Of a stretch of DNA of 64,000 nucleotides, positions 3,977 to 43,030 are shown one piece after another. The DNA lies in NCBI RefSeq assembly GCF_016859285.1, contig NC_053413.1:18743501-18807500 (forward strand). The letters are read 5' to 3'. A program made the translations under genes and the position numbers. The stretch's first letter is position 1. Every line of letters starts with the position of its first letter. The stretch comes from Xiphias gladius (lineage: Eukaryota; Chordata; Actinopteri; Istiophoriformes; Xiphiidae). The notes beneath the pieces were generated by a model, which saw only the letters and a list, made by a program, of their open reading frames with translations, had not been told where the DNA came from and ran no database searches.

Positions 3977-4016
<40 letters not shown>

Positions 4017-4490
4017 GTGTTTTCCGTTGCTCTGCTCAGGTCAAAGTTGGGTGGATTACTGCCAGGAATCACCTGATGTCATGAAAGTGTTGCCCTGCCG
4101 TAGCAGGTGCACAGAACTGAACGGAAAAGTATACACCTGTATACGCCTACAGAGTCCTGAGAGTCTGATCAGCCAAAACACCTGTCTAGTGGAACCAATT
4201 GATCACAGGTCCATAAAACTGAACAATAAACTGCAACTGGTTCACAAGAAGGTTCTCTAAGCGGTTCAGGGTGTATAATCGGTTTTGCTGACACAGACCC
4301 CCTTTTCAGGAGGTTTATTACCATAAAACTGAGTGTAAGTTGAGTGCAGAATATTTATGTATCACCTCATTTACACCAAATTCATACTGGAATCGAAACA
4401 AAAATTTTACAGAGGATAAACCAGAAAGACAGGCTTTTACTGTGAAGTGGCCTTAGGAAGTGTTGACGTACCTACAGCATCGTGAACTTT
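3300..4490. other. Intergenic stretch
   Basis: AT-rich sequence between the left-edge gene and the next promoter. It contains a CA microsatellite at about 3978-4014. Short open frames here have no recognisable motif or splice context and I do not call them genes. Confidence 0.5.
3978..4014. repeat. (CA)n microsatellite
   Basis: About 18 uninterrupted AC dinucleotides followed by TGGTGTTTTCC. A smaller CA run also lies at positions 7-20. Confidence 0.95.
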
Positions 4491-4497
4491 TACTTCC

Positions 4498-4504
4498 TAT
4501 AAAT
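4498..4504 (+). promoter_or_regulatory. Candidate TATA box upstream of a non-coding exon
   Basis: TATAAAT lies about 30-80 bases upstream of a GC-richer stretch that ends in a strong donor, CGAG|GTAAGA, at 4579/4580. This fits a TATA promoter with a short 5' untranslated exon for the gene whose first coding exon begins at 5924. The start site is inferred. Confidence 0.4.
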
Positions 4505-4529
4505 TGCTACATCGACTGGAAAATTCACA

Positions 4530-4579
4530 GCAAAGGGCGCGACAAAGAGAAAGCCGAGGTTCTCGCCTGCTGTGTCGAG
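4530..4579 (+). other. Probable 5' non-coding exon of the RING-VWA-E2-U-box gene
   Basis: The 3' boundary is a consensus donor (GAG|GTAAGAAC) at 4579/4580. The 5' boundary is only estimated from the TATA-like box. No ATG-led frame is evident, so it would be untranslated leader. It could alternatively serve a separate transcript that does not include the RING exon. Confidence 0.35.
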
Positions 4580-5559
4580 GTAAGAACAGCACCAAAGCCC
4601 AGCGAGAAACCTCAATAACTATACTATAAAACATTTTTCAACGGAAACAGCGTTATTGCAGGTTTGTATTGACATATAGCCAGATGATCAACAGCGAAAT
4701 TTAGACTATGCGGGCCAGAGTTGTAGATAGATACCTGTTAAGTGGTCCGTCAAAGCGCAGGGAGCCGCGCGACGCCGGGGGGCGTGTTTAAGAATGTGGC
4801 TAGGTCAGTCCACCTTCAAAGAAATTTTGTAAGTCACCATCATTTCTTAAAAAAAAAAAAAACAAGAAAAAACTTAAAATGACATTTTTTAACAATAGTA
4901 AACCTTGCTGTCTAAGGCTAGTCTTAGCTCAGCTCCCTGACTCAGTTAAGGAAGCTAGTTAGCCTCGATTGAGTGAATCTCTAGCATCGATGCAAACTTT
5001 AGCTAGCAGTAGGTTTGTTGCTCCGTCATAGTCCATGTTAACACTGCAAAGGTCAGTGTTCCCATCTTAAACATAATTTTGTAATTAATAATTAAATAAG
5101 CTTGTATTATTTCTTTAGCCTGGTAAGTCAGTCAAGCTAAAGTTATTAAACGTTACTGTCACTGTGAAGACACTAGTTATACTAAAGCATCATACTACAA
5201 GATAAGATATTTGCTCATTTTCTCGTTTAACAGCAGCTTTTCTTTTTATAGCAAGGTGTTTTCACCTTATTATGACATATTTTTTCATTATTACAAGAAA
5301 CTGTTTTATTACCTTTTAAAAAAACTTTATTATAACAACATATGATTTTATTTTTTGTATCACAAAACTTTAGGATTATTTCGTTGAAGCAACACATCTT
5401 GTTAAAACAACTTTCCTCATTATAACATGATAAATTGGTATGTTGTCATAATAACAAGGAACTTGTTGTGGCGGGCTGTTTTATGTATCATGGTTGTGAG
5501 TTGCTTTTGTTATGTTTGTGTGCCTGGGCAACGACTCTGTACAGGTTTTGTGGGGAAGT

Positions 5560-5770
5560 CTGTTCAGAAAACATTACCCTGCAACCCTGGGCACTGTATC
5601 ATACTGAACAGGAAGCCTTATTAAACCTCATCCTTCTCAGACCTCTTTAAGACACTGTGGCCTTACTGACCATGATTTCTAAATACTCGATGTTGGAATG
5701 ATTCCTTTCCGCAGTTTTGGTCTCTAACTTATTCTGTTTGGTTTCATTTTCATAGGTTTCATTTTCTAGT
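5560..5770 (+). repeat. Direct repeat, left copy, upstream of RING exon
   Basis: Shares ordered blocks with 7435-7610: ATTACCCTGCA, ACACTGTGGCC, and TAAATACTCGATGTTGGAAT followed by GATTCCTTTC and TTTCATAGGTTT. The two copies flank the duplicated RING exon block. Confidence 0.7.
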
Positions 5771-5844
5771 CAGGCCCTCCCATCAAAAAGCAACAGAGAA
5801 TAGAAACTTAAAACATCACAGCTCTGGTGCGTGCAGAAGGTGAA

Positions 5845-7025
5845 AACTGAGAAGCTGTTATCACTAAACCTGTGAGCTACGCCCATCTTTGTCCCTTCCT
5901 ATTTCTGTTGGAGTGTGTAGGAGATGGCAGCAGCAACTGTTTCTGTTGAACAAGACCAGTTTTGTTGTCCAGTGTGCCTGGAGGTTTTGAGAGACCCGGT
6001 GACGATCCCCTGTGGACACAGTTATTGTTTGGACTGTATTGAAGACTACTGGAAAAGGACTAGGCAGGAAGGCCAGTACAGCTGCCCTCAGTGCAGGCAG
6101 GTGTTTAATCCGAGACCTCTGCTGAGTAGAAACACAGTTCTGGGTGAAGTGGTGGAAAAGTTTCAGCGAACTGGACTTCAAGCTGCAGCTCAGCACTTGG
6201 CCAAACCTGAGGAATTGAAGTGCAGTCTTTGCACAGGGAGAACGAGCAAAGCTGTTAAATCCTGCATTGTGTGCTCGGAGTCTTACTGCGTGGCTCACTT
6301 GAGGGTCCACCAAGAACGCTTTCGTGGAAAGGCCCATAAACTGATCCCAGCTTTAGATCAGCTGAAAGAGAAGCTGTGCCCTCAGCACAACAAAGCACTG
6401 AGGCTGTACTGTCGCACTGACCAACATTGTCTGCAGGGTCATGACGCAGATGAGAGAACAACACAACAGGTGCGTTTGAACATTTCTTAAAATGCAGAAA
6501 TTATTCCTTAATTTATTCATTTAAATTTTGGGGAGTTCAAATATGTGTTTGAACAGCTTGACTTACCTGTAGATATATAAACTGACTACAACTACGATTA
6601 GAATATGCTTTTTTTCCTAGTACTTTAAATGATGTAAGTTACACATTATGTAAGTTTGTGCACCAAAATTCAGACAGAGGATTTTACTGAGAGCATGTAT
6701 TTAATTTTAAAGGGGCATTCCTCTTATTTTTACATGTCAAAGTCAGTACATGGGTCATGGTTGGTACTCCTCAGACTGTGAAAAATGTTGTCTAAAGTTT
6801 TTTCTGTGGTTCTGGAAGAGCTTCACCAAGTCTGACAATATAACCCTGATGACGTCATACTGATGTCATCAGCTTGTGCTGCGTTATATGGGATTGACGG
6901 TAGAGATGGAGAAGAGTCCCATATTTATAAGTGTTCACATAATTGGACAGTTGAAGATTGTTGGTCATTTGAGAGATAAAAATACTGCGCACTGACAATA
7001 TACCACTATATGTTTAATCTGTTTT
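5845..7025 (+). repeat. Segmental duplication, copy 1 (RING exon plus flanks)
   Basis: Near identical, apart from small indels, to 41890-43030. It includes about 80 bases upstream of the ATG, the whole RING/B-box exon, its donor and about 550 bases of intron, ending near ACTGCGCACTGACAATATA. Similarity fades abruptly on both sides. Confidence 0.9.
5924..6469 (+). other. RING + B-box exon (domain block, residues 1-182)
   Basis: The RING is C3HC4: FCCPVCLEVLRDPVTIPCGH then CLDCIEDYW and CPQCRQVF. B-box 1 follows (CSLCTGRTSKAVKSC...CVAH). The second B-box begins CPQHNKALRLYCRTDQHC but then jumps to LQGHDADE. Compared with the paralogous exon at 41976-42560, nine and four codons are missing, removing the CSQCVRGGHKGH zinc ligands. 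The exon ends in phase 0 at the donor GTGCGT. If the donor is not used, translation would stop at a TAA at 6488-6490, giving a 188-residue RING/B-box protein. Confidence 0.85.
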
Positions 7026-10000
7026 TAATGTTTTTTTTAACATTTAAAGGGACTTTGGCAGAGACGTCCATGTTTGTTTGGTTTTCAGCACCATGATGTT
7101 ATTAAAGGAATTGTTGAACATTTTGGGAAGTAAGCTTATTCGCTTTTTGTCAGAGTTAGATAAGAAATGTCCGTCTCATGATAATATAAGGCAACACCCA
7201 GTGGCCAGTTAACTTACTTTAGCAAGAAGACTGGAAAAAATGGGAATGGACAGTGGTTTACTGTTCCCAGCTAAGAAATAGTCCGGCAAATAACCCCCAC
7301 AAAATGGCAAATTGTTATTTTTACACTTTGGGTTTTGTATGGATTGAACTAGAAAGCTTCTAATGTTGTGTTGTTAAATATCCAATATAATTTGATTTAT
7401 TTTTGTAACACTGTCAACTTGTAGACATGCTAAGAAAATATTACCCTGCATGGGTAGGTAACTGAATCATATTGAACAAGAAACTTATTGAACCTCACTT
7501 AAACTTCTTTAGGACACTGTGGCCATGATTACTAAATACTCGATGTTGGAATGATTCCTTTCTACAGTTTTGGATTCTATTCCATTTGGTTTCGTTTTCA
7601 TAGGTTTACAAGAGGGTATTCCTTAAATAAAATGAATGAAGTAATGCTGCTACATCCACCATTTCCCTTTGTATACACAGCTTGAAATCTGTAGTCAATA
7701 TGTCTGGCTCTACAATCTTTAGGCATATGTTTAAAAGTCTAGACAGTCCTTCATAACAGAGAGACAGTTGTGCCAAGCTTTGATCCTAAACTGCATGACA
7801 TGGGATCATCTCGACAGAGGACTGCAGTTGAAAATTAGCCAGTGGGCTAACACTGGCACACTTACAGAAAGGCAGATTGATGTGTATTTTTGTTAAGCAA
7901 TCATACACTGCTGGGGCAGGGGGCAGGGGGTTTACACAACTATTTTTTGCACAACAACCAAATGCATTACTATGAATGTCCCACTGACAATATGCAGTTA
8001 TCTTTTTAAAAATTTTCTTTTTTTTAAATGGAATGCTGGTTTTCTTTTAAATAATGTTTGAATAATTCTCACTTCAACTACTGGTATTATCTTCAGTTTC
8101 TAATGAGTATAGTAATGTAAATTGAATTTAATAATATAATTTCTCTGCTGTTGACTGTAACATATGTTTTTGGTATTTTCCAATAATGTCATTTGCCACA
8201 ATTATTCAAAAAACCTTTGAGAGTGAAAACAAATATAATCTCCTTACATCTTTGTTTAGGTGGGTGCAATATTCAACCTACTTGAGCAGTACAGACTGGA
8301 GACGTACTACAATGGGTTTCTTCAGTTGGATGTAAAAGACGAAAGAGATTTCCTGGATGGTGTGACAGATGAAGATCTAAAAAACTTAGGTAAGAGTGCT
8401 GAATATGGATGAATTTCAACACCCTTGTAAAGGTAAGCTTAGATTTTCAGTTTTATATGTGAATTGCTTGGAAAATGAAAGCTTTGTAGGCACTTAAAAA
8501 TATGTCAACATAAATATATCAATACTATTTTTATGTGAGAATGAAGAGAATTTGGATTCTGTACACAATTGCCTTAGTTGACGGTAGTTTTCTTGAACAC
8601 TTAACTAAGTACTTATCTGACTGCCACCCAGTGGAAAATACAGTAAAATTATTGTTTTGTTCTTGTCTGACCATGTTATTCACTAGAAATTCTACTCAAG
8701 GTCCTTTACACAATCTTCCTGGTACAAGTTATCAGGAAGAAAAAAAATAACTTACTTGACACAGTAATTTGCTACAACATTCATATAATACATATCTTTG
8801 TGAAATGTTTTAACTGTTTGAAATCCTAATTGTATATACTGTCAGAGGTCATAAGCTTTGTTGTGCGTTTGGTGGATGTAGTTTGTGGCGTAATTGTATT
8901 GAATTATAAGTAAGTTGTGAAGTGTTTCTAATATTTATGCATCTTATATGAAAAGAATGTAGGTGAAGTCTTAGAAACACTTTCAATAAAAGGCTGTCTA
9001 GTGCAACACCATTTTAAAAAAAAATACAGCCTCATGAAAAACCATATAGACAACCAATTAAAGTCTTCTCATTAATAATAAAGTGCTGTGAGTATGTTGC
9101 ATTGCATTACATTACAGTTTGTATTAAAAGAGGACTGAGATTTATTGTCAGAAAAATACTTTCTCGATTTAAAGAAAACATCACCATGAGTTATGGGACA
9201 ATGCCAAAACATACAATAGATGGGGCTGTGCAAAAATATTTAAAGCTAATCAATTAGAGCTAAATTGTTGTTTGAAGATGTGTAAACGTAAGTATCTACT
9301 AGGGCTGGGCAATAAAACGATCTTGATCATCATTACCAAAAAATTTCCCACAATAACAATGATAAACTGATGAGTAATATTCATAATCCTATTATGCTAC
9401 AGTAATTGACTCACATAGCTGACATTTGTAGGGCCAAAACAAGGGGGGGAAAAAACACACTGCTGGAAACGTAAAAATGAGCGACCAGGAGGAGAGTCAG
9501 ATGGTCGCACAGGATGATGAAATTCCAGATATCACACTGATAAATACAGTAATAAGACATTTTGAGGGACAGTGAGAACATTTTTGCAAAAGTCTTGTTT
9601 TTTATCTCTTCTTTTTTACAGGCCTAAGTCATGTGGAGAAGAACCGGTTTTTGGCAATGAAAAAATTCATTCAGGGACTCAGAGGTCCAGTCCAAACTGT
9701 GACACCTGTGCAAAAATCAATGGAGGCGTTCTGTCTGCAGTACACATACCCCAAATGTCCTCAACCAAAATATATTGAAAGTAAGAGGGAAACATCTTAT
9801 AATGCATATTTTAATATTTTTATCAATGATTTAGGTCATTCCGTTGACTTGTTTACAGGATACAGCTTAAGGGCAGCTTACCTTCAAATGTTTTGTGATT
9901 GTGAGCAGAGAAATACCTAAGTCTGCTGTCAAACCATGTCCTGAAATATACCACCCTTTGCATAATAGTAGCAGATTTGATGAGATGCAGATTTTGAAAT

Positions 10001-13000
10001 TTGTAATTTACAGATTTGGATCCAGCGCAAAACACAGTTGAAGATATTATGTTAAGGATCTGTCACCTTGAAAATGTTGGCAACACCACAGGAGTCTGTC
10101 TCTACACAATCGATGGGATGCCCTTGACAGATGATCCCTTCTTCAACACATGTGAGCAAACCTAAAAACCTTTTTACAGTTAAGGTTGTTAGATGAAAAA
10201 TTATATGTTAAGTACATTTGAGCAGTTTATTAACTTTCTTATCAAGTACTGTGTACATATTTATGTTATTTATGATCAAACAAGTAAGACTACAGTGCAG
10301 ACCACAGGAAAATCCACTTTGATTGCATATAGACCTCTTAAAAAGAAAAAAAACATAGCTCCGCAGTTCTAATTGGACACCCTACTTTCACCGCCTTTTA
10401 AAGAAACAATGGCTGTTAATGTTTGAAAAAAAAAAAAAAAAATTGATGTATTTGTATTACGTACACCAAAGAAATATTTAAAAAGCAAAAGAGATGCTGT
10501 CAGGGAGGAATGTGAGGGTATAGAATAAATTGCCTTTTTTAAACCTTTACAAAACTTAATATTTTGACCATGTGGGTCATTATTGCATATTGTGGTATTC
10601 AAGGGTTCACAATACACTCAGTTCCCAGTTTGTGAGGTACACCTAGCTAAAACTAATGCAGTCTGTTGTAACATACCTGCAATGCACCCTTCCTTCATGA
10701 AAGTTATATTGTTCAGTTTTGGTTGAAAGGGTTTTAGAGAGGTGTTGATTCAAAGACTGCAGTTTCTGATGCTCTTGAACTGCATTGCATTATAATGACA
10801 GGTGTTTCTACATTTTTGTCCACCCCATTTATATCGATGAGTGTAGGCTAAATAACAGAAACATCTCTCTGTATAAGGCAAAATGACCATAACCTTGAAT
10901 CAACATCTCTCTAAAACACTTTCAGCAAGAACTGAACGTTACAACTTTCATTAAGGTAGGATTTATTGCAGGGCTGTTGCATTTGTTTCAGCTAGTTGTA
11001 CCTAATAAACTGGCAACTGAGTGTATATTTGTCAGTTTATTGCCATAAAAAATTGACTAAATATACCTGTATTGGGCCAATGACAAAACTGTCCCAGTAT
11101 TTCACACTGACATTTCTTGTGGCATTGGCTTTATTTATTATATATCACATTGTTATAATCCAAACATACAAAGATTGTAGGGGTAACTCCTGATTTTGAA
11201 AAAAAACATCAGTGCTAAATATGCCTCAAATCATGCACAAAGTCTCACCTGTCCCTACCTTCGGACAGTTTATACCACCACATCAAATGTGAATGATAAA
11301 CTTTGGGGGACAGTTGTAGGCACCAACTACAAGAAAGGGAAAGGGTTTTCCAGATGAAACAGTCTTGAATGCAGAAAATGATTACAGTTCCATGCATGTC
11401 GATGGGAATAACATTTCCAGTTTTTGTGTGAAATAAAAACTTTGATTTCTCTTCAGCTGTACAAAATCTAGTACGGTTTTTCAGTTTTAACGTCTCTTTA
11501 TACAGGGTCTTTGAAAGACAGGCACATTCAAAGTGGAACTGTGATCTATGCCATATTCACACCAAAGGAAAACCTGAAACAGGCTCCACAAATGCCAAAG
11601 CAAGAGCTTGGCGATACCTCTGGAGAGGATGTCATTCGATGCCACATCATGCTCAAGGTACGTTTTAACTATGATGGTTATGATACCAGTAATGATATTA
11701 TCAACAGTTTCACCAGTTGTTTTTTTTGTTTGTTTGTTTTTTTTTCTGGGGGGGGGGGTCCAAGTGCACAAAAGTTCTTCATTTTCTCCACACAATGGAA
11801 AATAACTTCTGTTGTAATTATCCCTTCAGAATGTGGCCAGGATCAATCAATAGTGTAATAAAGTAGCTTAGAAAAAAGTTAGAAAAAAGAAGATTTAGTG
11901 TTAAGTTACTCTTTAATGATTTTTTAAATCTATTATTGTGTAAGCAAGACAAGCGAGTGTCCAAAGTGGCAAACCAGGCAAAACCACCTCCACTAGGAAA
12001 CCTTGGATAAATTCAACTAACTTAACTGTCAAGAAAAAATGAAGTTGAAGAAATAGATTTGAACTCCATCTTTATATCCCTCTAAGTAGAGTTCAGGATG
12101 TTTGTGTCTGTCAGTGAACTTAATTGTGAGGGTTGTAAATGGAAATGCATTGCCTTATTTTGTTAACATTTATAGTATATAAAGTTTTAATTGAAGTTAA
12201 ATCTGCATGTTTTATTCACTTAATTAGGGAGACTTCGACCTGATGATGAACTTAGAAAGCGACACTTTGACCAGCCTGAGATTCGAGTTGGCAAATGCAA
12301 GTGGAATCCCAGTACATGTCCTTCATTACAAGTAATTCAGAATTACCACAATAAGCATTGATTTTGTGGCTTGTGACCCTCTTTGTCAACACAGATTTCT
12401 TTTATCATGTAGTGCCGAGCACTCAAGCAGCACCTCTGTTCTCTGGTGTGCTTTTTTATATTTTCAGAGGTCAGTCCTGTGGTGGTGTTACGCTGCAAAG
12501 CTGTGGAATCTCTGAGAGGTCAACAGTTGCCTTCTCTCTATCCACGTTTTGTGATGAGTCGTCATACGATGAGACTTTCTTCATAAATGATGTTGTGGCT
12601 TCAGTCCAACAAACCCAGAAAGGAATCAGTGTGTTTCTGTCCTCACTTTATGCTGTTGTAAGCAGTGTTTATAATATATTGTTCCCATTTTCTTGCTATC
12701 TCATGACTTTACTTTTTGTATCTATATTACACTGCCCATTGTTTTCCTTTCCTCATCAGTAATTTTTTTGCAGTCTTGACAATCCCCTTTTGCCTTTCAT
12801 TGAACAGTATGTCTGGTGATATTCTATATTTTTTTCGTATTGTCAATAAAGTTCATGAAAACTCAAAGAATGAGCTGATCTACTAACAAGTATTTTCACT
12901 GGAGTCGATCTAGAGTCAGTTTCACTTACAGCGTCCTGCCACTCGTCAGTACACCATATCCTTACATGAAAGTAGACCGTGACAAATTAGTGCTGTTTGA

Positions 13001-16000
13001 GTAACATTTGCTAAAAACAACAATGCCGAGCTGTTTCAAAAGTTTTTGAAGTTTTAAAAAAAAAAGTCCATATTCATGTGCCATTTTCTTTAAGATTTAC
13101 GTCTTCAGTAGGAACAAATGGGCATAGGGCTGAGTGCAGCAGTAAGAAGAAGATATATAATATAATATATAAAAGAGAAGTCGGAGTATAGAGAGAGGGA
13201 CTAACATTTTTTTGATTTGGATCTGTTCGTGGAATTTGTTGACAATAACAAAATACAGATTATTGCCAACCTTAACCTTTTACTTTGTTCTTTCCGCTCT
13301 TTAGAAATAATCCTACAAAGTTTTATTTGAGGATGAATTCATCTAATATTTCTCTCCCCATTGACATTATGCTTTTTTTTTTTTAAATGTTTAAGTGCCT
13401 TTTTCCTTACAGCTTGACTATATCCAGTTTTCCTGTCTGGCTTCTGAAGCTGTTTGTTTTTGCATCTTCCATGAAAAACAGCTGATAATCAACTAGAAAT
13501 TCGCTCTAGATTTCTTACTCTGCACTTTCCTGAAATTAATTCAAACTAATCTAAAAAGTTGGAAAATGTAGCAATAAAGTTGATACACTGTCAGGTAATT
13601 TTACTCTCTCCCCCTCCAGTGGCTTTTATCCTGTTTGTAATTTACGTTTCTATTTTTTCTTTTAGAAACTGCATCATTCCAAAATAATACAAAATAAATT
13701 GATTGCCTACATACGAAAACTGACTGGATGTAACCCTCTTGCCCAAAGTTTGCATCAGTTACTCTGCAGGAATGAAAAAATTACAAGGAACCAGAAGGTA
13801 AACAATATGAGGTGATATAATTTTGCCTTTAATGTCTGTTGTATTGTACTTGTATTGATGTATGCCTAGTTACTGCATTACAACTTTACTATGTGTACGT
13901 TGTAGTCAAAATGCTGCTTGCGCAAAGCCATGTATATTGATTAACAATATTGACACACCTCCTTTAAGTTAATGTAGCTCTAAAGCCACTGTCTCATTGT
14001 ACTCATGCTAGTGGCTAAGTCAGTAAGTGGGAAAATGTTTTCTTCAATTGGAATGAACTCATCCTATTCGTTGGAGTTGTACAAGCGTTTCGTAACACTC
14101 ATAATGCTCATTAATTTAATGTAATCATGATTTATTCACTCTTGTGTATGGCTTTGACCGGTGCCAATTTCTTCATATGTGCTTGTTACATTGCTGTAGA
14201 TTGCAGTTGTTGAAGGCTTGTACATGCTCTTCAGAGAGCTTTTGCCCCAACTTGGATCAGAACGAGGGAACAAATGCATCAAGGACCTGTATGTCTTTGA
14301 GAATTCATTGTACTGCTGGGCACATCTCATTTCAAGATCAAAGGTATGATGATATTTGGGTTTGACTGAAATGGGCTTTTGAAGTGTAAAAACAGCAATT
14401 TTAAACTCACATCCCCAATTGTAAGTTCGTAAATTTTGTGTGGATATCAGTATCTCAACATCTTTGTGGATGTTGAGATAAATTTGAGCTAGTGGTTGAT
14501 ACTGTACTTTAATGTATTTGTGAATGTGTCCTATAACCAATTCCCGGTTAAGCATTGATTTTTGAAATGATCACCTCTGATCTGTCTTACTTTGACAGAA
14601 ACAGTCATCAGACCTTGAGAACTACGCACCAATCACTCTTACGTCTGAGGATGACAACCGTTTCTGTGAACCAGTTAGAGTACCTGGAGTGCCATGTGCC
14701 TTTGAACGAGCATATGTTCTCCAGAAAATCAAAGGTAAAACTAAAACAATGAACGGTCACAATACCATAAAACTATTCTTACTGTAATAACAAATTTTTA
14801 TGTGAATGAGAAGATGCTTCATAGTAGATTTCTGACGAGACAAAAGGCTGATTACAAAATGCTCAAAGTAAAAATATCCATCCTTAAAATTTTTGTTTCT
14901 TAATCTCTTTTTATGCTTGGTCCAGTACCGCATGGTTTAATCACACCTGTGCCATTTTTAACCATGATCAAAAGCATTTCCATTGTGCCCTCGCCCAAGA
15001 TATCATGGTTATACTTGGAATTTTGTTGTAGGAAACTGAGAGAGCTTAATTTTTAAAAGTCTGATGACGGGAAGCTTTTTTGTAGTTTTGTGTAACATAG
15101 AGTCAATTTTAGCAGTTTTGTTCCACTCTCACATACCAGTGCTTACTTCATCGCTAAAGGACAGACAGTGGCACTTGTCAGTGAACTGCTCTTGTCCTAT
15201 ATATCAAGATATGGGCATTTTTCATCTCTGTCAGCTGAACCATTTTAAATATATGAAATATGGTGAGAAGCAGTAAAAGAAGCAGCAACATTGAGGTGAT
15301 AAGATGAAGACCTGCAGGTGAACGGCACTGAAATGCAGTTTGTACAAAGTTTGCACGTGTCTGATCCTGTACATCAGTGACTTCTACCATCCCATACTGG
15401 TTTATGGGAAATCCACTTGCACCATCACTGCAACAGACACTCTGATAATAGTTGCTCCTGGCATGGTTTGGCATGGATATCCCACCTAAATTCAGCATTT
15501 GCATATTGTCTCGCAAAACTGGGCATGTTTTAGTAGTGAATGGTGTATTATTATTGGCTCGATTTCCTGTTCTGTCCTTTTGTTTAGATGGAGAGAAAAT
15601 TCCAAACTGCACTGAAGAGATTTTGCAAGAAACCTCATTACAGAGAGCCGCTGACATTGAGAAAATCTTGCTCAGCTTGCCTCCATTCATCAAGAAATAT
15701 CCTCTCTGGCCTCATCATGACAAGATGACTGGTCAGAAGTATGTACCATCAAGTTTTTACTTTATTTATTTTTTTAGGCAATTTAGAGAAAGAGTTACCA
15801 GCCTTGAAGTTGTATCTGGTTATTTTACTATTAATATTTTTTGTAGATGATATTCAGTAGATGCAGTATATTGTGGTATGTTTGTGTTTTTTTGATAATC
15901 GATTAATCTGTCATTTTTTAAGCAAATATGCCAAACATTTACTGGTTCCAACTTCTTACAACTACAGTATTTAACTTTTGCTCCAAAACATATCTTAAAC

Positions 16001-16062
16001 GCCTCTGTGACCTAGACTCAGAGATGCGTAGGTAGATAGATAGATGGATGGATGGATGGATG

Positions 16063-16096
<34 letters not shown>

Positions 16097-18543
16097 CAGT
16101 TTGTGCAGCATCCTCCTCTCCACAACCAACTCCAAGGGCTCGAGAGAAGTCCCCAGCACAGAGCCAGCCTTCCTGATTTGTTTGTTATTTCGGCCCCCGG
16201 GAAACTGTGAAGGCTTTTTTACTCTTTTTACATTTTAATAGAATTAGCGATTAATTGAGAAACTAGTCGGCCAAATTAAACGATAATGAAAGTAGTTGTT
16301 ATTGCATATTAGGGCTGCAACTAATACACAACTAAAGAGACAAAAGGGTTGCAGTGGAGGATAAACACACAAACGCTGTTTAGCCACTTCTCAAATCTGA
16401 AATAGTTTTAATGCTCTTCATCTGTGGCTCTTATGCAGAGTTAACATGGCCCAGTATGCAGGCTTGCACTTTTGAAGATTCCTCTTATTTGTATGTCGAT
16501 CTCACTGTATGTTCACACGCACATGGAGCAGCCAAACATTGCCATCAAAATCTGCATCGATATTCAAGACCTTCCAAACGTTCCACTTGTATAAGATGTT
16601 TCAAAATGGGCAGGTTGCCAGCGTACTGTTAAAGTCATAACTCCTTTTTAATAGCAGAACATGCTTGCCAAATCATCAACGTTGCCGACAAGATAACTTC
16701 TGGTGAGATGTCCATTAGATTGGCTGTGGATATTGAATTTGGTGTACGAAAAGGCTACGGACGCACATTCATCCTCCAAGAGATTGAAGCCCTTTGAATT
16801 TAGTCATTCTCTGACTTGTTATTTCAGCCAACGTCAGTCTAATGCATTCAACAAACATTTTGATCAAGATTTAGGATTATACTCAAACCTTCATTGTCAC
16901 TAACCTAAACAATTAAATGACAGCTTTCAGATCAAGATTCAGCGGACTTTTGGAAGTATGGTTGAAGCATTGAAATCTTTCCCTTGGCTCAATGTGACCC
17001 CACCTCTTCATCTGAAGGGTCTAGGACAGAGTCAGGTTCGCCTTGTTCTGCTGAGTGAAGGTACTCCATTAAATCACAGTCTGGATGGTCACCCCTTTCT
17101 GTGCACATAACATGTTTTTAACCTACATTGCCGTCTTTATGGGTTCATGCTGTTGACGGATCATTTTTTTGTGTGTATTTTTCTCTTTGTCAGACAACCT
17201 TGGTATTTATCTGTATAAAGACAAAGGATCAGCAGATATGATCAAAGTGCTTGATTGTCTGGATGGCAAAGTGAAAACAGTGGATGTGAATGTACTGGCA
17301 GCCAAGTGAGTACCTGAACCTTACAGCTTGTATAAAAACAACCGTTATGAAGTCAGTCAGGATACAATATAAAACAAACTCGATTTTGGGATTTTAACAG
17401 CCCGTTTTCCATCAGAAGAATACAACATCATTTACTATATGACCTATAGAGTTAATTTCCACAATCCGTCACACCGCTGTTATGTTGTAGATCAAATTCT
17501 GCCTTCATCCAAAGCATTGGTATGTGTTTATTTCCTGTATTAAACTGACAAACTAATTGTATTTTTAACATGTTTCAATGTAATTGCAATCAGAAATCAT
17601 GGTTGCCTTCGCTAAAACCAGTGCCAAACACTGAGGCCCTCCTGTAAATTTTTTGCCAGCACCCATGTGGAAGAATTTCAGTCATTTTTGTAGATATTGT
17701 GTTTGTTTTCCCTACTTGAATGAGCTAGTGTACAAGTCAGTCCTTTTCATTATTAAATGTATAAAATGATAAAATACACCAAAATGCCAGAGCTACCAGG
17801 ATTTCTAGCTGATGTTTTGCTTCACATATGTACCGTCAAATAACTGACTGTCTCGATTTTTGACATTTAACACAGGACTGGTGACCATAGAGATGACGGC
17901 TCATTTGTTACAACTAGGACTCCAAAGGAGGCCATACTGGTAACACTTGTGGCTTTGCTAAGTCTTGACAATATCCATACAGGGAATGGCCCTAACCAAT
18001 ATACTTGAAACAATACCCATTACAGTTTTAAAGATTGGTATGTTTTGTTAAGCTGTCGTGGTCATTAGCATTTGAGGGAGAAAAATGGCTGTTCTGATTT
18101 ATTTTTTGTTGTTCTTAAGAAATTTCTACTAAACAGTAGTCCATAGATACAATATTTATATCATTATTCTTAACTTTATTTTCATTAGGTCCTGATAGAT
18201 ACAAGCTCGTCCATGGAAGAAGAGTGCTACGGAAATGCAGGAATAAAGAAAATCAACGCTGTGAAGGAGCTCTTTGACAACTTTGCATCAAGAAGCATGG
18301 CTTATGATTTCCATCATGTCATTGGCCTTGTGAAGTTCGACTCCATGGTGAAAACTCTCCACACATTTACTGAAAATCTGGAAAAGTTCAAGGTAAGGGT
18401 ACATAGTGCATCCATCAACGCGTCAAAGGAGCGTCCTGGCCAAATGTGGATTCTTCATGTACAGCTAACTTTGCATCCAATTTTTGTTCTAATTTTTGTT
18501 TAGTTGTAATCTACCTAAATAGAAATGTAAGTCAATCTTTTTT

Positions 18544-18641
<98 letters not shown>

Positions 18642-21600
18642 TTTTCTTTTATTCTATTTTATTTTATTTATTTATTTATTTTAGGAGCACATACGTAACC
18701 TTGAGCCAAATGGATGTACTCTGCTGTACGATGCTCTACGACGTGGGGTGTCTGAGTTGGAAAAGGTCAAGACGACATTCCCAGATTGCAGACTTCGCAT
18801 CATGTGTCTCACTGATGGAAATGATTCTGGGTGAATTTCCTTCTCTGTGCTAATCTGCCTGCGCTACCAACTTTACATTATAAATTCAAAAATATATGTG
18901 AAATGCTTTACCTTTGAGTTGAACAGGTGTTGACTAATGCATATTTGTAATTGCTGGAGCCAGAGCCAGATCTGATAACACTAATTAATGAGATGGTTTG
19001 TTGACTCTGTGATCTCTCGTTCCCTATTATCTGTCTCAGTCATTTCTTCAAATGGTATCAAGGATATCAACTATTACCCCTGATTCTAAAACATGCTTTA
19101 TTATTTCACAAATTGGCACTGCGTAAGCCTTGGTTATACAGCTTGTCATACATTTATTTAATGTTGCTATATATACTGTCAACTACAGTTTGTGATGTTA
19201 TTTGGGGGCAGCTGAGGTCATAATCTGAGTGTTGTCATACTTCCGTAGATCCTCGATAGAGCCAGTTGCAGTTACAGCCAAACTGCTCAAATCCAACATT
19301 ATTGTGGATTCAATCCTTCTTGGAAATGTGGAGAACAATATGCTGCATGGAATCAGCAATGCAACAGGTATGCTTTTATTCTTAGTTGAGTGTAATTACC
19401 AAACTATATATAAAGCTGCATAAAAATGCTATATGCGCATCATTCTGTGAATTCTGAGACAAATTTTATTTTGATGAAGCATTACCAAACTGCAGTCAGA
19501 AATCTGACATTAGTTATCCTCTGACCATTTCTAAATGCCCACGATTAAATCAACCATGTAGGCACCATCAGTTGCATTCCAGACTACGTTGTTTTTATCA
19601 TCCTTTGTTTCTGTATTAAAAAAATTTGAAAATGACTGATGTCATGAGAAACAATGACCAAAAGTCCATATTTTTAAATCACACACCAGTGTTGTGCTTT
19701 ACCCAACGAGCTCTGTATAACAGTCGTTAAGATTTACACATGTCACAATGAAGTAAAATCCAATATCTAGAGGTCTGGCTTTGGTAAAACATCCCGTAAA
19801 GCAAAAAACTAGGACTTAACAGAGATGCAGATGTAACAGTCCCTGGAGAATGTGTGTGTGAGTCAGCGGCCGCAAAGTGACATCAAATAACAGCCTCGAC
19901 CATTAGAACAGAGAAAAATCAAGATTTTCGTCCGGATGCTGGGTAACAAAATGCATATTATAGATTCCATTATTGTCTTGTGTGTTAATACTTATAATAG
20001 TGGACATACATGTTTATATTTTTTGATCGTACAGTTTTTCAGACATTCATTGCATGCCTCCACCACACATCCACATTGCTTCCAGGTGGTTGCTGTTTCA
20101 AACCGCAGACAACCAAGGAGGGTTTGAAGCTCTTTGAGATCGAGACAGTTCTGTCTTTGGAGCAGAGGAAACCCAAGAAAATATTTGATCCTTCCTCTAT
20201 CAGTGAGGTCCGTTGCAGTATCCACTATTCTGTTTAAGAATTTAAACACAAAAAATGAAACACACCATAGTAATCCATTTAACCGCTTTAACCTTACAGC
20301 TTGTCATTGTTTGTTCATTTTTTCCCTGCTATTTTGTAGCGCACTTTAACAGGCATCTTTGCAACTCATGGGTATGATGAATATCCAGAGACATCATTTC
20401 CAACCCAGATGAACAACAAAGTGACAGAGACAGAGAGGTGAGAGATAGAAACAACCATCCTCTGGACGCTGATAATAAACCCGATCAAGTAAAGATATTG
20501 TGCCCTTTGTCCATCTGTCAGTGACCACTTTTTTTTAACTCTCCTTCATGCTTCATCTGATTTGTCACACATAAAGGATGTTATTGTAGATCGATGTGAT
20601 AGGTAATAGTAACAGATTAGGGCTGCAACTAACAGTTATTTTCACTATCAACTAATCTGCCAATTACTTTTACAGTTACTTGATTAATCCTTAGTCTAAT
20701 TAAATTTTAAAAATACCAAAAAAAAAAAAAAATGCCCATTGCAACTTCTCAGAGACCAAGGTGACTTTCTCAAACAATTTGTTTTTTTCCAATTAACAAT
20801 CCAAAACCATAGATATTAGGTTTGTTATGATATAAAACACAGAAAAATAACAAATCCTCTCACTTGAGAGATTAATTATCAAGATAGTTGTCAGGTATTT
20901 TTCTGTTGATCAACTAATTGAGTAATCGTTTCAGCCATATAGCAGATAGAATGATTTGACAAAATGATGGTTTAACACCACAATTAAAAATAGAGACCTT
21001 TGATAATAAATAAATGTTTTTAAAAAAGCTTAAAAGAAAAAAGAACAAAAAATATGGATTGACTAAAATTTGGTGGACAGGTTGCCCTTGCACCATTATA
21101 GCCAATTAGTGGTAATTTCATTTTGTTGTAGCACCCCTCAGTGGCAAGATGTCATAGATTTTGCAGGATAGCTCGAAGTCACTTAGGGCTGCAGCTGGCA
21201 ATTATTTTCATTATCAATTATTATGCCGTTTTTGCTAGTAAAATGTCAGAGAACAGTTTAAAAAAAAATGCTCAGCACAATTTCCTAGAGATGAACGTGA
21301 CTACTTCAAATTACTCGTTCTGTCCAACTACCTGTCAAAAATGTAAAGATATTAAGTTTACTGTCATACAAGACAAACAAAAGCAGTTTGTCTTCACATT
21401 TGAGAAGGGTTGGAGCAGAGAATGTTTGACATTTTTGCTTAAAAAAGGACTTAAACGATTATTGAATATCAAAATAGTACTAGCGGAATAATTTTTTGTT
21501 GATCGTCTGATTCATTTATTGACAAATTGTGGACAAAAATGTAAAGTGTTTCACCAATGGCCTCAACCAAACAGGATCCTCTGAGCCTTGTGATGTCTTA

Positions 21601-24256
21601 ACAGTAACAATTATTAAAGGGTTTTTAAAATGTGTGCATTACATTTGAAGCATTAATAATCTTTCAAAATAGTGCTCTGAAAAAGAGGCTTCGGGAGTCG
21701 AAGGATGGGTGTCTCATGGAGAAGGACAAACGTATCCTGGAGGAGCTGAAGAGCCTGCATTGTGATCCGCACCCCTTCTTCAAGGTCTTTCCATCAGAGT
21801 CAGACTTTAGTAAGTGACATTGTCTGTCGTGACCTCTTTTTGCTCCCACAAAACAGGACTTAATCTTGAAAAAAATTTAACAAGGCTATGATTTACCTGG
21901 GCTATGTTGTCCGTGATAGACCCACGTTATGCCTTTGCTAATAATAGCTCATGAAAACCAACATGCTAAGTGCAGTCCTAAGTGCCCACTGTGCTATGTC
22001 CTGTCAGCCTTCATTGTGGTGCGACACTGGTACTGACAAGACTCTATTGAAAAATGAAAGCACAAAATGTCGTCTTCCATATAAAGATTTTATACAATTG
22101 GGGTGTACCGTAGTCCTTTCATAGCTACAGTGTTCACTTATTTTTGTTATCTTTTCAGCGTTCTGGAGGATTCTCATGCAAGGCCCCCCTGACACACCAT
22201 ATGAGAAAGGAGTGTTTGAGCTGTACTGCCAGTTTGGTCCTGACTACCCAGTGAAGCCTCCACTGGTTCGCTTTGTCACTCGAGTATCCTGCCTGCTGTA
22301 AATCAGTAATGTTATATGATAGCAATTTAAGTTTTTGTATACACCGTGCATGGTTTTTTGTTTTTGTTTTTTGGTAGAGAGATTTTACTTAACAGAATGA
22401 CAGATGTACCACTGTAATGTCAACAGCGTGGGCCGCATCTGCCACAGTATATTTGACCGCAGCTACAATGCCCACGTTACCACAAGAGAGATCTTTGATG
22501 CTGTGTATGGACTGCTAATCATCCCTGAGCCTGACGATCCACTGGACAGGTGAGATGTGTACATTCATAAATAAATCACGCTAACGCTCTTATTTTATCT
22601 GGACATTTCTTATGCTGCAGGTATTTGTGATCCATTTACAAAGTTAAGTGTGGTGCATGGATTTAAAATGTTAACTGGTAGAAATATGTTTGCTCGTTAT
22701 TTTACTTTTGATGTAAACGTTCACTGATACATCTTCACTCAGGATTATCACTGACGATGTTTAATAATCTACTAGTGCAGTGAGAGTGTAAAGAACTCCG
22801 GAAAGTGACGCCTTGCCAAACACGTTTTTGGATTTGTGAGTTTGTACGGATTTGGAAGAACAGAGCTTTCCCTCCTGTACTGAGAAAAATGTTTTTACAA
22901 CAATAACACGATGAGGTCTGGGGCCTGTACCACGAAGCGAGATTAGTGGGTTATACAGCTATCTTTGAGTTTAACTCAGGTTACTGACTCGCTTTTGACC
23001 TGGGTAGATCACCATGGTAAGCTTTGCTGCAGAGGTAACCTGGGACCTGTATCACTAAACCAGTTCAACTTAATCTGGCTCTCTTTTGGCATCACATTTG
23101 GCATCCTGGATAACCTGTATCACAAAGCTGCATCACATATTCGTAATAGCACTACATAGTAGTGCTTACCTTTAGCAATGTGGAAATAATTTCTTGTGTT
23201 TCGACAGCTTCTTACTCTAGTTGCATGATTATATTGTATTGAATATGAGTTTTCAAAGTACATTATTATGAACTGTGTATATTAAGTACCCCCCTCATGG
23301 TTCAGATGATGATCCTTGTTAATTAACAACTCTGCCTGCGGCATCTTAATGTTCATAATGATACAAAGATGAGATATGTGAAGCATTTGACGTGTACTTT
23401 GAACTTCTCTCGGAAGCATTTTGGCTGAGGAGTTCATGACAAGCCGTGAGACGTACGAACGGGAAGCCAAGAAACAAACAGAGCAAACTGCAGGAAAGTC
23501 AATGAACGACATGGAGAAGGTGAATGAACTAACATATTTTCAAAGTTGTGGCGGATTATTACCTTCCATAAACATATTTGGTGTGTTGCAGTCTTTAAAT
23601 TGACACACTCTATAATGTTTCCTGTTCTTGTCTTTTTTTTTTTATTGTAAAGAAATTAGTGGATCCTGTGCCACAGTTTATACCTCAACATCTAATCTGC
23701 CCGCTCACCAAGAGGATGTTTGTTGATCCTGTGAAAACTGTATACGGCACTGTGTATGAACGCAAGGCCATTGAGGAACACCTCAAACTGTGAGTTCACT
23801 TACAAATGTTAACACTAATTAAAAGTGAGTTATTGAGTTATGACTATGGCAGTGGTTACTAACCTGACTCATAACAGTTAATCAATGACCTGCTTGTAAA
23901 GGAGCCCATCTAATTGCTCTTGGCCCATTTAAAACTATAAATACTGCAAGAGACTTACATCCAAGGGCCTTTTGTCATATAAATATACAAGCAGACAAAG
24001 CTCGTGCTAGAAATCCCCTATTGGTGGTTTAGGCAGGGAGTCTGAAACCACTATCACCCCTAAAAAAATCTTAGCAATCGATCTCATCTGCTGTATTGCC
24101 GTGTACTGTATTTTCACCGTTGATTGTATACTCTCTTGCAGACACCAGTATGACCCAATGGCTGGCCCAGGAAGTGACCTTAAACGTAGCGACATAACAG
24201 CAGACAGGGACATGAAGAAAATGGTGATGGATCATCGATCTCGTCAAATTCAGTGA
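5924..24256 (+). CDS. Multidomain RING / SAM / Ubl / VWA / UBC (E2) / U-box protein, 25 exons, 1248 aa
   Basis: Exons: 5924-6469, 8260-8389, 9622-9780, 10014-10151, 11506-11657, 12228-12331, 12468-12657, 13666-13797, 14200-14343, 14599-14734, 15588-15738, 16924-17060, 17194-17305, 17876-17939, 18189-18392, 18685-18830, 19249-19367, 20086-20207, 20340-20437, 21673-21809, 22159-22283, 22404-22549, 23417-23519, 23653-23789, 24142-24256. Every intron is GT-AG, all phases match, and the sum is 3,747 nt (1,249 codons). Domains by residue: RING 14-58, B-boxes 85-180 (second one damaged), SAM-like 184-240, ubiquitin-like 280-345 and 368-435, unknown 440-760, VWA 766-960, UBC 1005-1150 with Cys1095, U-box 1168-1245. 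This predicts an E2 and two E3 modules in one chain. The first exon could instead belong to a separate transcript: the SAM exon has no ATG and needs a phase-0 upstream exon, which the RING exon supplies. I know no named vertebrate protein with this layout. A poly(A) signal is at 24937-24942. Confidence 0.75.
7095..7310. repeat. Dispersed repeat remnant
   Basis: Contains TTTTGGGAAGTAAGCTTATT CGCTTTTTGTCAGAGTTAGA and later AAGACTGGAAAAAATGGGAA, a layout seen again near 50025-50160. It is an old interspersed element of a type common in fish. Confidence 0.5.
7435..7610 (+). repeat. Direct repeat, right copy, in intron 1
   Basis: Diverged copy of 5560-5770, in the same orientation, inside the intron between the RING and SAM exons. 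It implies a local tandem duplication in the history of this 5' region. Confidence 0.7.
8260..9780 (+). other. SAM-like domain exons (residues 183-278)
   Basis: Two exons, 8260-8389 and 9622-9780. The first reads VGAIFNLLEQYRLETYYNGF then FLDGVTDEDLKNLG, and the second continues LSHVEKNRFLAMKKFIQGL. The spacing of 'L..Y...F...D' and 'L.(D).DL..LG....G.R.K' matches a sterile alpha motif, a small helical interaction or oligomerisation module. The first exon contains no methionine, so it cannot be the start of translation. Confidence 0.65.
10014..12657 (+). other. Two ubiquitin-like segments (residues 279-473)
   Basis: Exons 10014-10151 and 11506-11657 encode a beta-grasp-like pattern: TVEDIMLRICHLENV, then GVCLYTIDGMPLTDD, then SGTVIYAIFTP. 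Exons 12228-12331 and 12468-12657 repeat it: GDFDLMMNLESDTLTSLRFE, then PVHVLHYKGQ, then STVAFSLSTF. Both resemble the beta-hairpin, helix, 'L.Y.G..L' and late strand of ubiquitin folds. No terminal diglycine follows, so they would be integral Ubl domains, not conjugated modifiers. The call rests on pattern only. Confidence 0.5.
10612..11027. mobile_element. Fold-back MITE in intron 4
   Basis: Terminal inverted repeats: the left end reads TACACTCAGTTCCCAGTTTG then GAGGTACACCTAGCT, and the right end AGCTAGTTGTACCTAATAAA then CTGGCAACTGAGTGTA. Further inward, GTTTTAGAGAGGTGTTGATT pairs with AATCAACATCTCTCTAAAAC. No open frame. Non-autonomous DNA transposon. Confidence 0.8.
15890..16330. mobile_element. 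MITE remnant with internal GATA/GATG microsatellite
   Basis: TAATCGATTAATCTGTCATT opens the stretch and AGGGCTGCAACTAATA closes it. Between lie a GATA/GATG tetranucleotide array at about 16030-16098 and unrelated sequence. Belongs to the GGGCTGCAACTAAC family found throughout the window. Confidence 0.6.
16030..16098. repeat. (GATA)/(GATG) microsatellite
   Basis: Tetranucleotide array of GATA units with a central block of GATG units, in an intron. Confidence 0.9.
18189..20437 (+). other. von Willebrand A domain with complete MIDAS (residues 766-960)
   Basis: Exon 18189-18392 starts VLIDTSSSM, the DxSxS metal-ion motif (Asp769, Ser771, Ser773). Exon 18685-18830 supplies the MIDAS Thr in GCTLLYDAL and the MIDAS Asp in MCLTDGNDSGS. 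Exons 19249-19367, 20086-20207 and 20340-20437 complete the fold (SNIIVDSILLG). An intact MIDAS implies divalent-cation-dependent ligand binding. No signal peptide precedes it, so it is an intracellular VWA, as in proteins that organise complexes. Confidence 0.85.
18550..18639. repeat. (TA)n microsatellite next to a VWA-exon acceptor
   Basis: About 45 uninterrupted TA units ending some 45 bases before the acceptor of the exon at 18685. The intervening stretch is T-rich (TTTTATTTATTTATTTTAG). Confidence 0.95.
20618..20940. mobile_element. GGGCTGCAACTAAC-family MITE copy
   Basis: Starts AGGGCTGCAACTAACAGTTA and ends GATCAACTAATTGAGTAATC GTTTCAGCC. Internal 'CAGAGACCAAGGTGACTT' block is shared with copies at 37905 and 62105. 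No coding capacity. Confidence 0.8.
21181..21530. mobile_element. GGGCTGCAACTAAC-family MITE copy
   Basis: Starts ACTTAGGGCTGCAGCTGGCA and carries the family blocks TCTGTCCAACTACCTGTCAA, CACATTTGAGAAGG and TTTTTGTTGATCGTCTGATT. The open frame across it is incidental. Confidence 0.75.
21673..23519 (+). other. Ubiquitin-conjugating (UBC/E2) domain (residues 1005-1165)
   Basis: Exons 21673-21809, 22159-22283, 22404-22549 and 23417-23519. The first gives the N-terminal helix (RILEELKSLHCDPHPFFKVF), the second the beta-meander (FWRILMQGPPDTPYEKGVFE, then YPVKPPLVRFVTR), and the third HCNVNSVGRIC with catalytic Cys1095 eight residues after the Asn, the normal spacing. The PEPDDPLD loop and a final helix (ILAEEFMTSRETYEREA) close the fold. 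HCN in place of HPN is also found in the UBE2E family. Expected activity is a thioester-forming E2. Confidence 0.88.
22915..23130. repeat. Short interspersed repeat, likely MITE
   Basis: GGGCCTGTACCACGAAGCGA opens the segment and a related GGGACCTGTATCACTAAACC occurs at about 23041. 'Gx CCTGTxxCACxAAxC' termini are typical of a common fish DNA element. It lies in the intron before the last UBC exon. Confidence 0.45.
23653..24256 (+). other. C-terminal U-box domain (residues 1166-1248)
   Basis: Exons 23653-23789 and 24142-24256. The sequence PQHLICPLTKRMFVDPVKT, then YGTVYERKAIEEHLK, then LKRSDITADRDMKKMV matches the U-box pattern 'CP(L)T...DPV....G.(T)YER..I..(H/W)L ... L..N/S.LI.(D)..LK..(I)'. 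U-boxes recruit E2~ubiquitin without zinc. The protein ends 8-10 residues after the domain at the TGA 24254-24256. Confidence 0.85.
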
Positions 24257-24936
24257 ATCTGTTGAGAAAACCTCTGGAGTTAATGCTCTGTAGTTTTATA
24301 TAGATGTTTCAAGAAAAAGAAGATGAACCGGCAACTCTTTATATTTTTCTACCCAGGTCCATCTTATTTAAATGTTGAAATTTACGTTTGTCATGTTGGT
24401 TAAGGTTAGGTTTTTGGTTATGCTGAACTATGGTGAGAACTGCGTGCAATAGTACACAAACCAGAAGAGTAGTAGTTGTGTGAATTGTGTTTATTTTATA
24501 TAACTCCACTGACTCGATGATAGATTTGCACTCAGATGTTAAGTGAAGTGATATTTCTCTGACACAATCCCCAAACAAGTTACCAAGTTAGAAAAGCCAT
24601 GTTACGTTTGCACTAATTAACAAAATCTTAAAATAGGTAAGACAAGCGAATGCAATTCTAAAAACCTTAACTTCATAATAATAAACATATGTAGCTTCAG
24701 AATGTTTCTTACTGAATATAAAAGTGAACCTTAATTTTTTCTTTTCCTGATATGAGCACTGCGTTGACAGTGAAAGTAATTTTGGTTTCTCTGCTGACAC
24801 TTTTATTTAGAGATGATTCTTGATTTTTGATTTTTTTATTAGTCTATATGTTTTTTTCCAGATTGTCAGTTACTCCTATGCACAGTTTCATTAGTCAAAC
24901 AAATTGGAAAAATGCGAATTACTTTTTGGAGTATTG

Positions 24937-24942
24937 AATAAA
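24937..24942 (+). terminator. Poly(A) signal AATAAA for the RING-VWA-E2-U-box gene
   Basis: AATAAA about 680 bases after the stop, followed within 20 bases by a GT-rich element (TTTGTTGTGATTGTCTT). An earlier AATAAA also occurs at 24680-24685. Confidence 0.5.
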
Positions 24943-41134: not shown

Positions 41135-41889
41135 ACCTCTAACGGACATCAAAAGCAACGATTCACATGCACCCGCACTGCCTGAATGTCGTTGTACTTG
41201 CCTGCTCTCCTCTCCTTTCCCTCCCACAGATATGGACTGACACGTGTGAACTCTACATTTAAGAATTCATCTTTTGGCATTTATTTAACTGTTTTGTTTT
41301 ACACCAATCAGCTGTACTTTTACCTCGCACTATAGTGCAGGTGGGCAAGAGATGAGGAAAGCATTTGCAAGTGCCACTGACGACCCAGTAGACAATGAAT
41401 TTACTTTAAGTATTAAGCAGCACAAAGCAGGACTGAACTCACTACAATTTATTCCAGTATTTGCAAGGAATTTGCCTTGAAAACTTTGGTAAGGTTTTAG
41501 TTTTTATTAATATATGTTTTTATGAATATTTTTCTTTTTTTTTTTTTTGAACCAAAACTGTTAACAATAATTTTTGCTTTAGAGATGCGTGTAACAAGAA
41601 ATTGTGATTTATGACATGCTGACATTAAAAAGCAAACACACTTGTACAAACTAATGTTCTCAGAAGGTGGTGTTTATTTTTGCATGGGGGCTGGTTTGCA
41701 TTTCACTGTATTCTGAGCAAATATGGGCATGAGGTGCCTGGCATTGGCGTCGGATAACAAGTTGACTTCACACACAAAAACATGTCAAATAACACTCCTA
41801 ATGCAAGGTTGTTCTTTGCTCAGTTTGCTTTATCTGGGACAACCTATTTCCGTTTTTGCAGGCTGTGATTGGAGGTTTCATGGTGCAGC

Positions 41890-43030
41890 GAGTGAAACCT
41901 GAGAAGCTGTTATCGCCACACCTGTGAGCTACGCCCATCTTTGTGCCTTCCAGTTTCTGTTGGAGTGTGTAGGAGATGGCAGCAGCAACTGTTTCTATTG
42001 AACAAGACCAGTTTTGTTGTCCAGTGTGCCTGGAGGTTTTGAGAGACCCGGTGACGATCCCCTGTGGACACAGTTATTGTTTGGACTGTATTGAAGACTA
42101 CTGGAACAGGACTAGGCAGAAAGGCCAGTACAGCTGCCCTCAGTGCAGGCAGGTGTTTAATCCGAGACCTCTGCTGAGTAGAAACACAGTTCTGGGTGAA
42201 GTGGTGGAAAAGTTTCAGCGAACTGGACTTCAAGCTGCAGCTCAGCACTTGGCCAAACCTGAGGAATTGAAGTGCAGTCTTTGCACAGGGAGAACGAGCA
42301 AAGCTGTTAAATCCTGCATTGTGTGCTCGGAGTCTTACTGCGTGGCTCACTTGAGGGTCCACCAAGAACGCTTTCGTGGAAAGGCCCATAAACTGATCCC
42401 AGCTTTAGATCAGCTGAGAGAGAAGCTGTGCCCTCAGCACAACAAAGCACTGAGGCTGTACTGTCGCACTGACCAACATTGCCTGTGCTCTCAGTGTGTT
42501 AGAGGAGGACACAAGGGTCATGACACAGTCTCAGTGGCAGATGAGAGAACAATACAACAGGTGCGTTTGAACATTTCCTAAGATGCAGAAATTATTCCAA
42601 CTTATTCATTTAAATTTTGGGGAGTTCAAATATGTGTATGAACAGCTTGACTTACTATTAGATATATAAACTGACTACAACTACGATTAGAATATGCTTT
42701 TTATTCTAGTACTTCAGAAGATATTACATAAGTTTGTGCACCAAAATTCATACAGAGGATTTTACTGAAAGCGTGTATTCAATTGAAGATTTTTACAAGC
42801 CAAAGTCAGTAACAGTAGTCATGGTCACCAAGTCTGACAATATAACCCTGATAACGTCATACTGATGTCATCAGGGTTATCTCAGCTTGAGCTTGTGCTG
42901 CGTTATATGGGATTGACGGTAGAGATGGAGAAGAGGCCCACATTTATAAGTGTTCACATAATCGGACAGTTGGAGATTGTTGGTCGTTTGAGAGATAAAA
43001 ATACTGCGCACTGACAATATAACACTATAT
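41890..43030 (+). repeat. Segmental duplication, copy 2 (RING exon plus flanks)
   Basis: Partner of 5845-7025. Identity covers the short 5' leader (GAGAAGCTGTTATC, CTGTGAGCTACGCCCATCTT), the exon, and intron sequence to about 43020. This copy keeps the intact B-box 2 and the full TRIM downstream, so it is the likely donor or the less altered copy. Confidence 0.9.

Follow-up and report, generated by a model that had tools for sequence, protein, structure and literature searches.

BIRC6 and UBE2O have been named as E2/E3 hybrid enzymes (PMC13061254, PMC12635394), UBE2O being called one of only two such hybrids identified (PMC12635394), and BIRC6 is described as not needing an independent E2 to transfer ubiquitin (PMC13061254). 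Among protists, VWA-U-box proteins (Mb_UBOXa) have been reported in Monosiga, Naegleria, and others; the gene is stated to be absent from animals (Marin 2010, PMC3087547). For U-box proteins of the green alga Chlamydomonas, VWA is among the 13 additional domains listed (PMC4378952). In zebrafish, TRIM exon capture or sharing has been reported as a route to new TRIM domain combinations, and ftr52, ftr06, and btr31 are given as TRIM genes with gained domains; ftr52, which carries a premature stop, could stem from ftr exons 1-4 inserted into a RanBP2-like gene, but in pufferfish no domain gains were found (PMC3137616).

The gene considered here lies in a 64,000-nucleotide stretch of Xiphias gladius DNA, referred to as the window, and is predicted as follows.

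5924..24256, plus strand: gene model of 25 exons encoding a predicted protein of 1,248 residues (stop-free exon join, GT-AG at 24 of 24 introns)
24680..24942, plus strand: two candidate AATAAA polyadenylation signals, at 24680 and 24937 (motif scan, 3' of the stop)

Our main reading, to which we assign a probability of roughly 0.6, is that a single gene codes for an E2/E3 hybrid with the order SAM-Ubl-VWA-UBC-U-box, fused to a TRIM N-terminus. Its parts differ in strength: it is highly likely that VWA, UBC, and U-box belong to one predicted protein, and exon 1, which carries the TRIM RING, is probably part of the gene. The features of an E2/E3 hybrid, namely a UBC domain with a catalytic Cys together with a U-box and a RING, all lie in one open frame. 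To our knowledge, neither BIRC6 nor UBE2O contains a VWA domain, a U-box, or a TRIM-type RING. As these two hybrids are described, they share with this gene an E2 UBC domain and an E3 function in one chain, but the E2 adjoins the U-box in this gene, unlike the case for BIRC6 and UBE2O. Mb_UBOXa, compared by description only, likewise has both VWA and U-box in one protein, but no UBC, SAM, or RING is mentioned in the text that describes it; the Chlamydomonas proteins have VWA in common with this gene, and UBC is not in the domain list given for them. In ftr52, ftr06, and btr31, as their source presents them, local rearrangement has linked one or more TRIM N-terminal exons with an unrelated part, as would be the case here, but the parts gained are RanBD-cyclophilin, a chromodomain, and a transmembrane segment rather than VWA-UBC-U-box.

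No animal VWA-UBC-U-box protein was found described in the literature, the search having covered titles and the starts of abstracts among the matches listed, with most subscription journals and the supplements outside it. The first-pass annotation had stated that no named vertebrate family has this domain order; the search is consistent with this statement but does not establish it, its scope being the literature alone, and it is quite possible that an uncharacterised gene prediction of this kind already exists elsewhere. Single-sequence scans for E2-U-box relatives gave 3 pattern stretches in viral and 14 in bacterial and archaeal sequences, of which none was confirmed, a result with little bearing on animals.

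Joining the exons by hand from the raw sequence reproduced the model proposed earlier in full, i.e., 25 exons and 3,747 nt of coding sequence including the stop, without an internal stop, from a start at 5924 to a stop at 24256, with 24 of 24 introns being GT-AG; G occupies donor position +5 in 16 of these 24. Four domains in the whole protein score above the Pfam curated cut-off: RING, VWA, UBC, and U-box. The domain matches and the continuous phase together agree with the earlier proposal that E2 and E3 modules occupy one predicted protein, and at the level of the genome the gene architecture is very probably genuine. Exons 2-13, the greater part of which has no family match, are supported as coding by their frame, which contains no stop in 554 codons, as compared with 31 in 550 and 30 in 545 for the other two frames. 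Codon scoring, with exons 1, 14-18, and 20-25 of the gene itself as the training set, gave 0.08-0.09 per codon in frame for exons 2-3 and for exons 4-13 pooled, and negative values out of frame; taken singly, exons 4 and 8 fall just short of zero in frame, and for exon 6 one shifted frame equals the true one.

The second half of the protein contains three of the four domains.

17876..20207, plus strand: exons 14-18, VWA domain with MIDAS letters (VWA_2 E 3.7e-11, VWA E 1.7e-8)
21673..23519, plus strand: exons 20-23, E2 (UBC) domain with the putative catalytic Cys1095 (UQ_con E 9.8e-35)
23653..24256, plus strand: exons 24-25, C-terminal U-box (U-box E 7.5e-18)

All three Pfam matches, at residues 764-878 (VWA_2), 1015-1151 (UQ_con), and 1175-1241 (U-box), exceed the curated cut-offs. 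The VWA domain had been claimed to have an intact MIDAS, and its letters D769, S771, S773, T845, and D877 are all present. A comparison of the VWA domain with the PDB gave no match to E 0.01, and two weak partial NCBIfam matches over it, to calcium-activated chloride channel and cobaltochelatase, were set aside, being far below cut-off. The E2 and U-box assignments made earlier hold as well, with Cys1095 aligning with the E2 catalytic Cys and the U-box lying at the C-terminus. When the E2-U-box piece was compared with the PDB, the best 60 of 327 matched sequences all aligned to the E2 part only.

Upstream of the VWA domain the assignments are less firm.

8260..9780, plus strand: exons 2-3, SAM-like domain, residues 188-236 (SAM_TNK E 2.1e-4 on a fragment, below cut-off)
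11506..12657, plus strand: exons 5-7, ubiquitin-like region, residues 366-437 (shuffle test against ubiquitin)
12468..17305, plus strand: exons 7-13, middle region, about residues 440-743 (frame open, coding-biased overall)

The SAM domain claimed at first pass is thus present as a weak match, which in the fragment search reaches 21.7 bits and falls short of the Pfam cut-off of 25. As for the two ubiquitin-like domains proposed, the second stands in part and the first finds no sequence-level support. Residues 366-437 score against ubiquitin above all of 2000 shuffles (z 5.9), but against NEDD8 655 of 2000 shuffles reach the score; for residues 265-346 the comparison is unremarkable with both, the score being reached by 681 of 2000 shuffles for ubiquitin and by 544 of 2000 for NEDD8. 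Four control regions gave z values from -0.9 to 1.0, and neither stretch has a Pfam match. The only PDB matches of the SAM/Ubl stretch were aldehyde oxidases (5 distinct sequences, E 0.079), which were taken as chance. For the middle region, the best Pfam match has an E-value of 0.11, and there is no PDB match up to E 10.

The start of the gene is an argument of its own, for which the following features are needed.

5924..6469, plus strand: exon 1, TRIM-type RING (residues 15-57), B-box 1-like stretch (100-139), and truncated B-box 2 (148-170) (Pfam; B-boxes below cut-off)
5831..7011, plus strand: duplicated block with exon 1, 84.7% identical to 41883-43030 (blastn, alignment)
41883..43030, plus strand: paralogous block with the first coding exon of a neighbouring TRIM gene (41976-42560), B-box 2 intact (blastn, alignment, Pfam)
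34985-37336: pieces of a second TRIM gene, a RING/B-box exon and a coiled-coil exon (Pfam)

An N-terminal RING had been proposed, and it is confirmed by zf-C3HC4_4 (E 1e-14, residues 15-57, above the curated cut-off), with eight ligands of the RING pattern (C15, C18, C30, H32, C35, C38, C54, and C57) and an Arg directly after the last Cys. What that earlier reading overlooked is the remnants of B-boxes in exon 1 and its origin as a duplicated TRIM exon. Its best PDB match, and so the closest solved sequence, is TRIM25 (4cfg_A, labelled as human, E 1.4e-24, residues 11-170), an E3 ubiquitin/ISG15 ligase; this match is only a family resemblance and no pointer to ISG15 over ubiquitin. Compared with TRIM25, B-box 2 is truncated and the coiled coil is not found: TRIM_CC is absent among the 20 Pfam families listed at E up to 1 for the whole protein, and after exon 1, exon 2 codes for the SAM-like stretch where a TRIM would have its coiled coil. 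With the coiled coil not found and B-box 2 broken, the predicted protein is not a TRIM by definition.

Exon 2 (8260-8389) is preceded directly by an in-frame stop, and past exon 1 no Met occurs before residue 238, where the SAM-like stretch ends; therefore, exon 2 cannot start the protein alone, and a coding exon upstream is needed. Four ATG-to-donor stretches in 3200-8259 are in phase with exon 2, and exon 1 scores 32.9 whereas the other three score -1.5, -5.6, and -7.3, in a search for single exons of at least 45 nt with donors of the form GT[AG][AG]G (more distant, short, multi-exon, or otherwise spliced starts being outside its scope) to which exon 1 was admitted by name, its donor GTGCGT failing the rule, a procedure that favours exon 1. 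Exon 1 is the best coding first exon among the candidates in this interval, and the GTGCGT donor is also present in its twin, the TRIM exon 36 kb away.

This twin belongs to a gene whose open frames, between 41973 and 47713, match RING, an intact B-box, the TRIM coiled coil, PRY, and SPRY. Exon 1 and the twin differ at 7 of 546 aligned bases, whereas the 5' flank shows 10 differences in 93 bases and the intron 33 in 452; gap columns number 39 in the exon and 108 in the intron. In windows of 100 nt, divergence stays at 0-2% between 5931 and 6430 and otherwise lies at 5-14%, except for 3% at 6831-6930 in the intron. Over the first 510 nt of exon 1, differences fall at 1 of 111 synonymous and 4 of 399 nonsynonymous sites; at the intron rate about 8 synonymous differences would be expected, and the Poisson chance of one or fewer is about 0.003. 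Since constraint on the protein would not by itself keep synonymous sites from diverging, the simplest explanation is that gene conversion has recently spanned the exon, and exon 1 and its twin have apparently been homogenised in this way. The N-terminal RING is better described as a TRIM exon common to the neighbour gene and, apparently, recently homogenised with it.

Exon 1 lacks 39 nt (13 codons) relative to the twin, in two in-frame gaps of 27 and 12 nt, which take out a CxxC pair and a His of B-box 2 while its frame stays open. Its B-box 1-like stretch reaches 19.3 bits (cut-off 27) and its zf-B_box match 17.3 bits (cut-off 24.1). The loss is derived, because the other two TRIM copies score as B-boxes, the twin with 47.0 bits for zf-B_box and the third TRIM exon, at 34997 (51.9% at the protein level), with 42 bits. 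The end of exon 1 is described as lost in btr31 also (PMC3137616). A 195-bp direct repeat (5566-5759 and 7433-7607, 76.9% identical) flanks the duplicated block, and no further copies of it were found in the 64-kb window at E 1e-3.

These same observations could be read differently, in that the true gene would be SAM-Ubl-VWA-UBC-U-box with another first exon and the TRIM exon at 5924 would be a stray, unspliced duplicate. The 1.2-kb block common to 41883-43030, its position between two direct repeats, as after insertion or local rearrangement, the broken B-box 2, and the substitutions relative to the twin, which give no sign of protein constraint, are all in line with such a history. However, exon 1 retains its frame and its donor, its phase fits exon 2, and the three other candidates in 3200-8259 all score below zero, so that we regard a stray duplicate as unlikely.

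The hybrid reading next turns on the E2 domain itself, which is identical to UBE2E2 at 56 of 142 positions over the aligned stretch. Residues were compared by a gap-free alignment to 7xed_A and numbered as in UBE2D from Cys85. Equivalents of Cys85 (Cys1095), Asn77, Asn79, Asp116, and Asp117 are retained, and the HxN motif is HCN, as in UBE2E2. Changed are F62 to V, S94-P95-A96 to N-A-H, and L104 to D, with other changes including S22 to K, D87 to S, K8 to E, and N114 to E. In UBE2D, F62, the SPA residues, and L104 have roles in binding the E3 and in the closed state of E2-ubiquitin; S22 makes a backside contact. The change of the E3-contact residues argues against a simple RING-activated mechanism, and an E2 that has kept its catalytic residues while losing those that usually touch an E3 would favour tethered or E3-independent transfer. 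The U-box, whose best PDB matches are LubX (E 9.6e-8) and then CHIP (E 0.0012), keeps Ile1175 and Pro1216, which align with E2-contact residues of CHIP, whereas Gly1219 aligns with a CHIP Arg. Together with the changes at F62, SPA, and L104, on which activation by a RING or U-box usually depends, Gly1219 suggests that E3-stimulated activity may be low.

The main functional rival to the hybrid reading is that the domain is a pseudo-E2, binding ubiquitin or the U-box only, with ligase activity coming from the TRIM RING acting in trans with an ordinary E2. The altered E3-contact loops, the changed equivalents of Leu104 and Asp87, and the complete ligand set of the RING fit a pseudo-E2, but the retained equivalents of Cys85, Asn77, and Asp117, along with HxN kept as HCN, do not, and we consider it rather improbable. 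We consider very improbable an arrangement of two genes or alternative mRNAs, in which a RING-SAM-Ubl-VWA product would terminate within intron 19 and a small E2-U-box gene would begin in exon 20, at Met1010. Met1010 does lie before the first helix of the E2, and the 1,235 nt of intron 19, at the VWA/E2 boundary, contain six AATAAA/ATTAAA motifs. However, that motif density resembles intron 2 (five in 1,232 nt), the phases agree across exons 18-19-20, residues 995-1009 are open and in frame, and exon 19 shows coding bias in its own frame (0.12, against -0.23 and -0.16 in the shifted frames).

Under the single-gene hybrid reading, exons 2-25, with their SAM-like, ubiquitin-like, VWA, E2, and U-box parts, would form a ubiquitin-conjugating machine in which the E2 adjoins a U-box in cis, and exon 1 would be a TRIM exon common to the TRIM gene 36 kb off through duplication and apparent recent gene conversion. 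The genome shows the continuity of the exons, the domains they encode, and the duplication of exon 1. We infer that the hybrid protein would be made from one mRNA, and we speak of its catalysis, modifier, and substrates in the same sense. Cys1095 would be charged by an E1 with ubiquitin or a ubiquitin-like protein, copies of the protein might be drawn together by SAM and RING contacts, and a substrate or partner might be held by the VWA and ubiquitin-like parts. The tethered E2 would then pass the modifier on, either in cis or from one copy to another, and the U-box would assist it in a specialised role, much as BIRC6 works with no separate E2; the TRIM RING could also recruit an ordinary E2 in trans. 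A self-contained ubiquitin or ISG15 conjugation factory scaffolded by the VWA domain, as was first proposed, is a reasonable guess, and none of the results speaks for ISG15 over ubiquitin.

As to how such a protein could have arisen, we offer one tentative and, on balance, doubtful scenario: a VWA-U-box ligase of the ancient type, surviving in an animal, would have gained an E2 beside its U-box and a TRIM RING by capture of a neighbour's first exon. It would thereby be a self-sufficient conjugation enzyme that combines two ligase modules with a ubiquitin-like region of its own. With its partner in cis, the E2 would have been free to drop the usual E3 contacts, and the RING would be kept in step with the neighbouring TRIM gene by gene conversion. 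A natural UBC-U-box fusion would make it possible to study directly how an E2 works with a tethered ligase and which E2 surface residues then become dispensable, and in exon 1 the capture or sharing of a TRIM exon could be seen in progress.

Finally, some other features of the window should be noted. Two tandem 4HBT thioesterase open reading frames, which we take to be THEM6-like, lie at 27579-28223 and 31593-32213, between the gene and the second TRIM gene pieces. An open reading frame with an eEF1-beta acidic region, presumably EEF1D-like, is found on the minus strand at 48885-49205, and a 382-codon open frame at 2024-3172 is without a Pfam match at 0.01. In addition, a tRNA gene on the minus strand at 60132-60214 is the sole Rfam match above the gathering score in the window.
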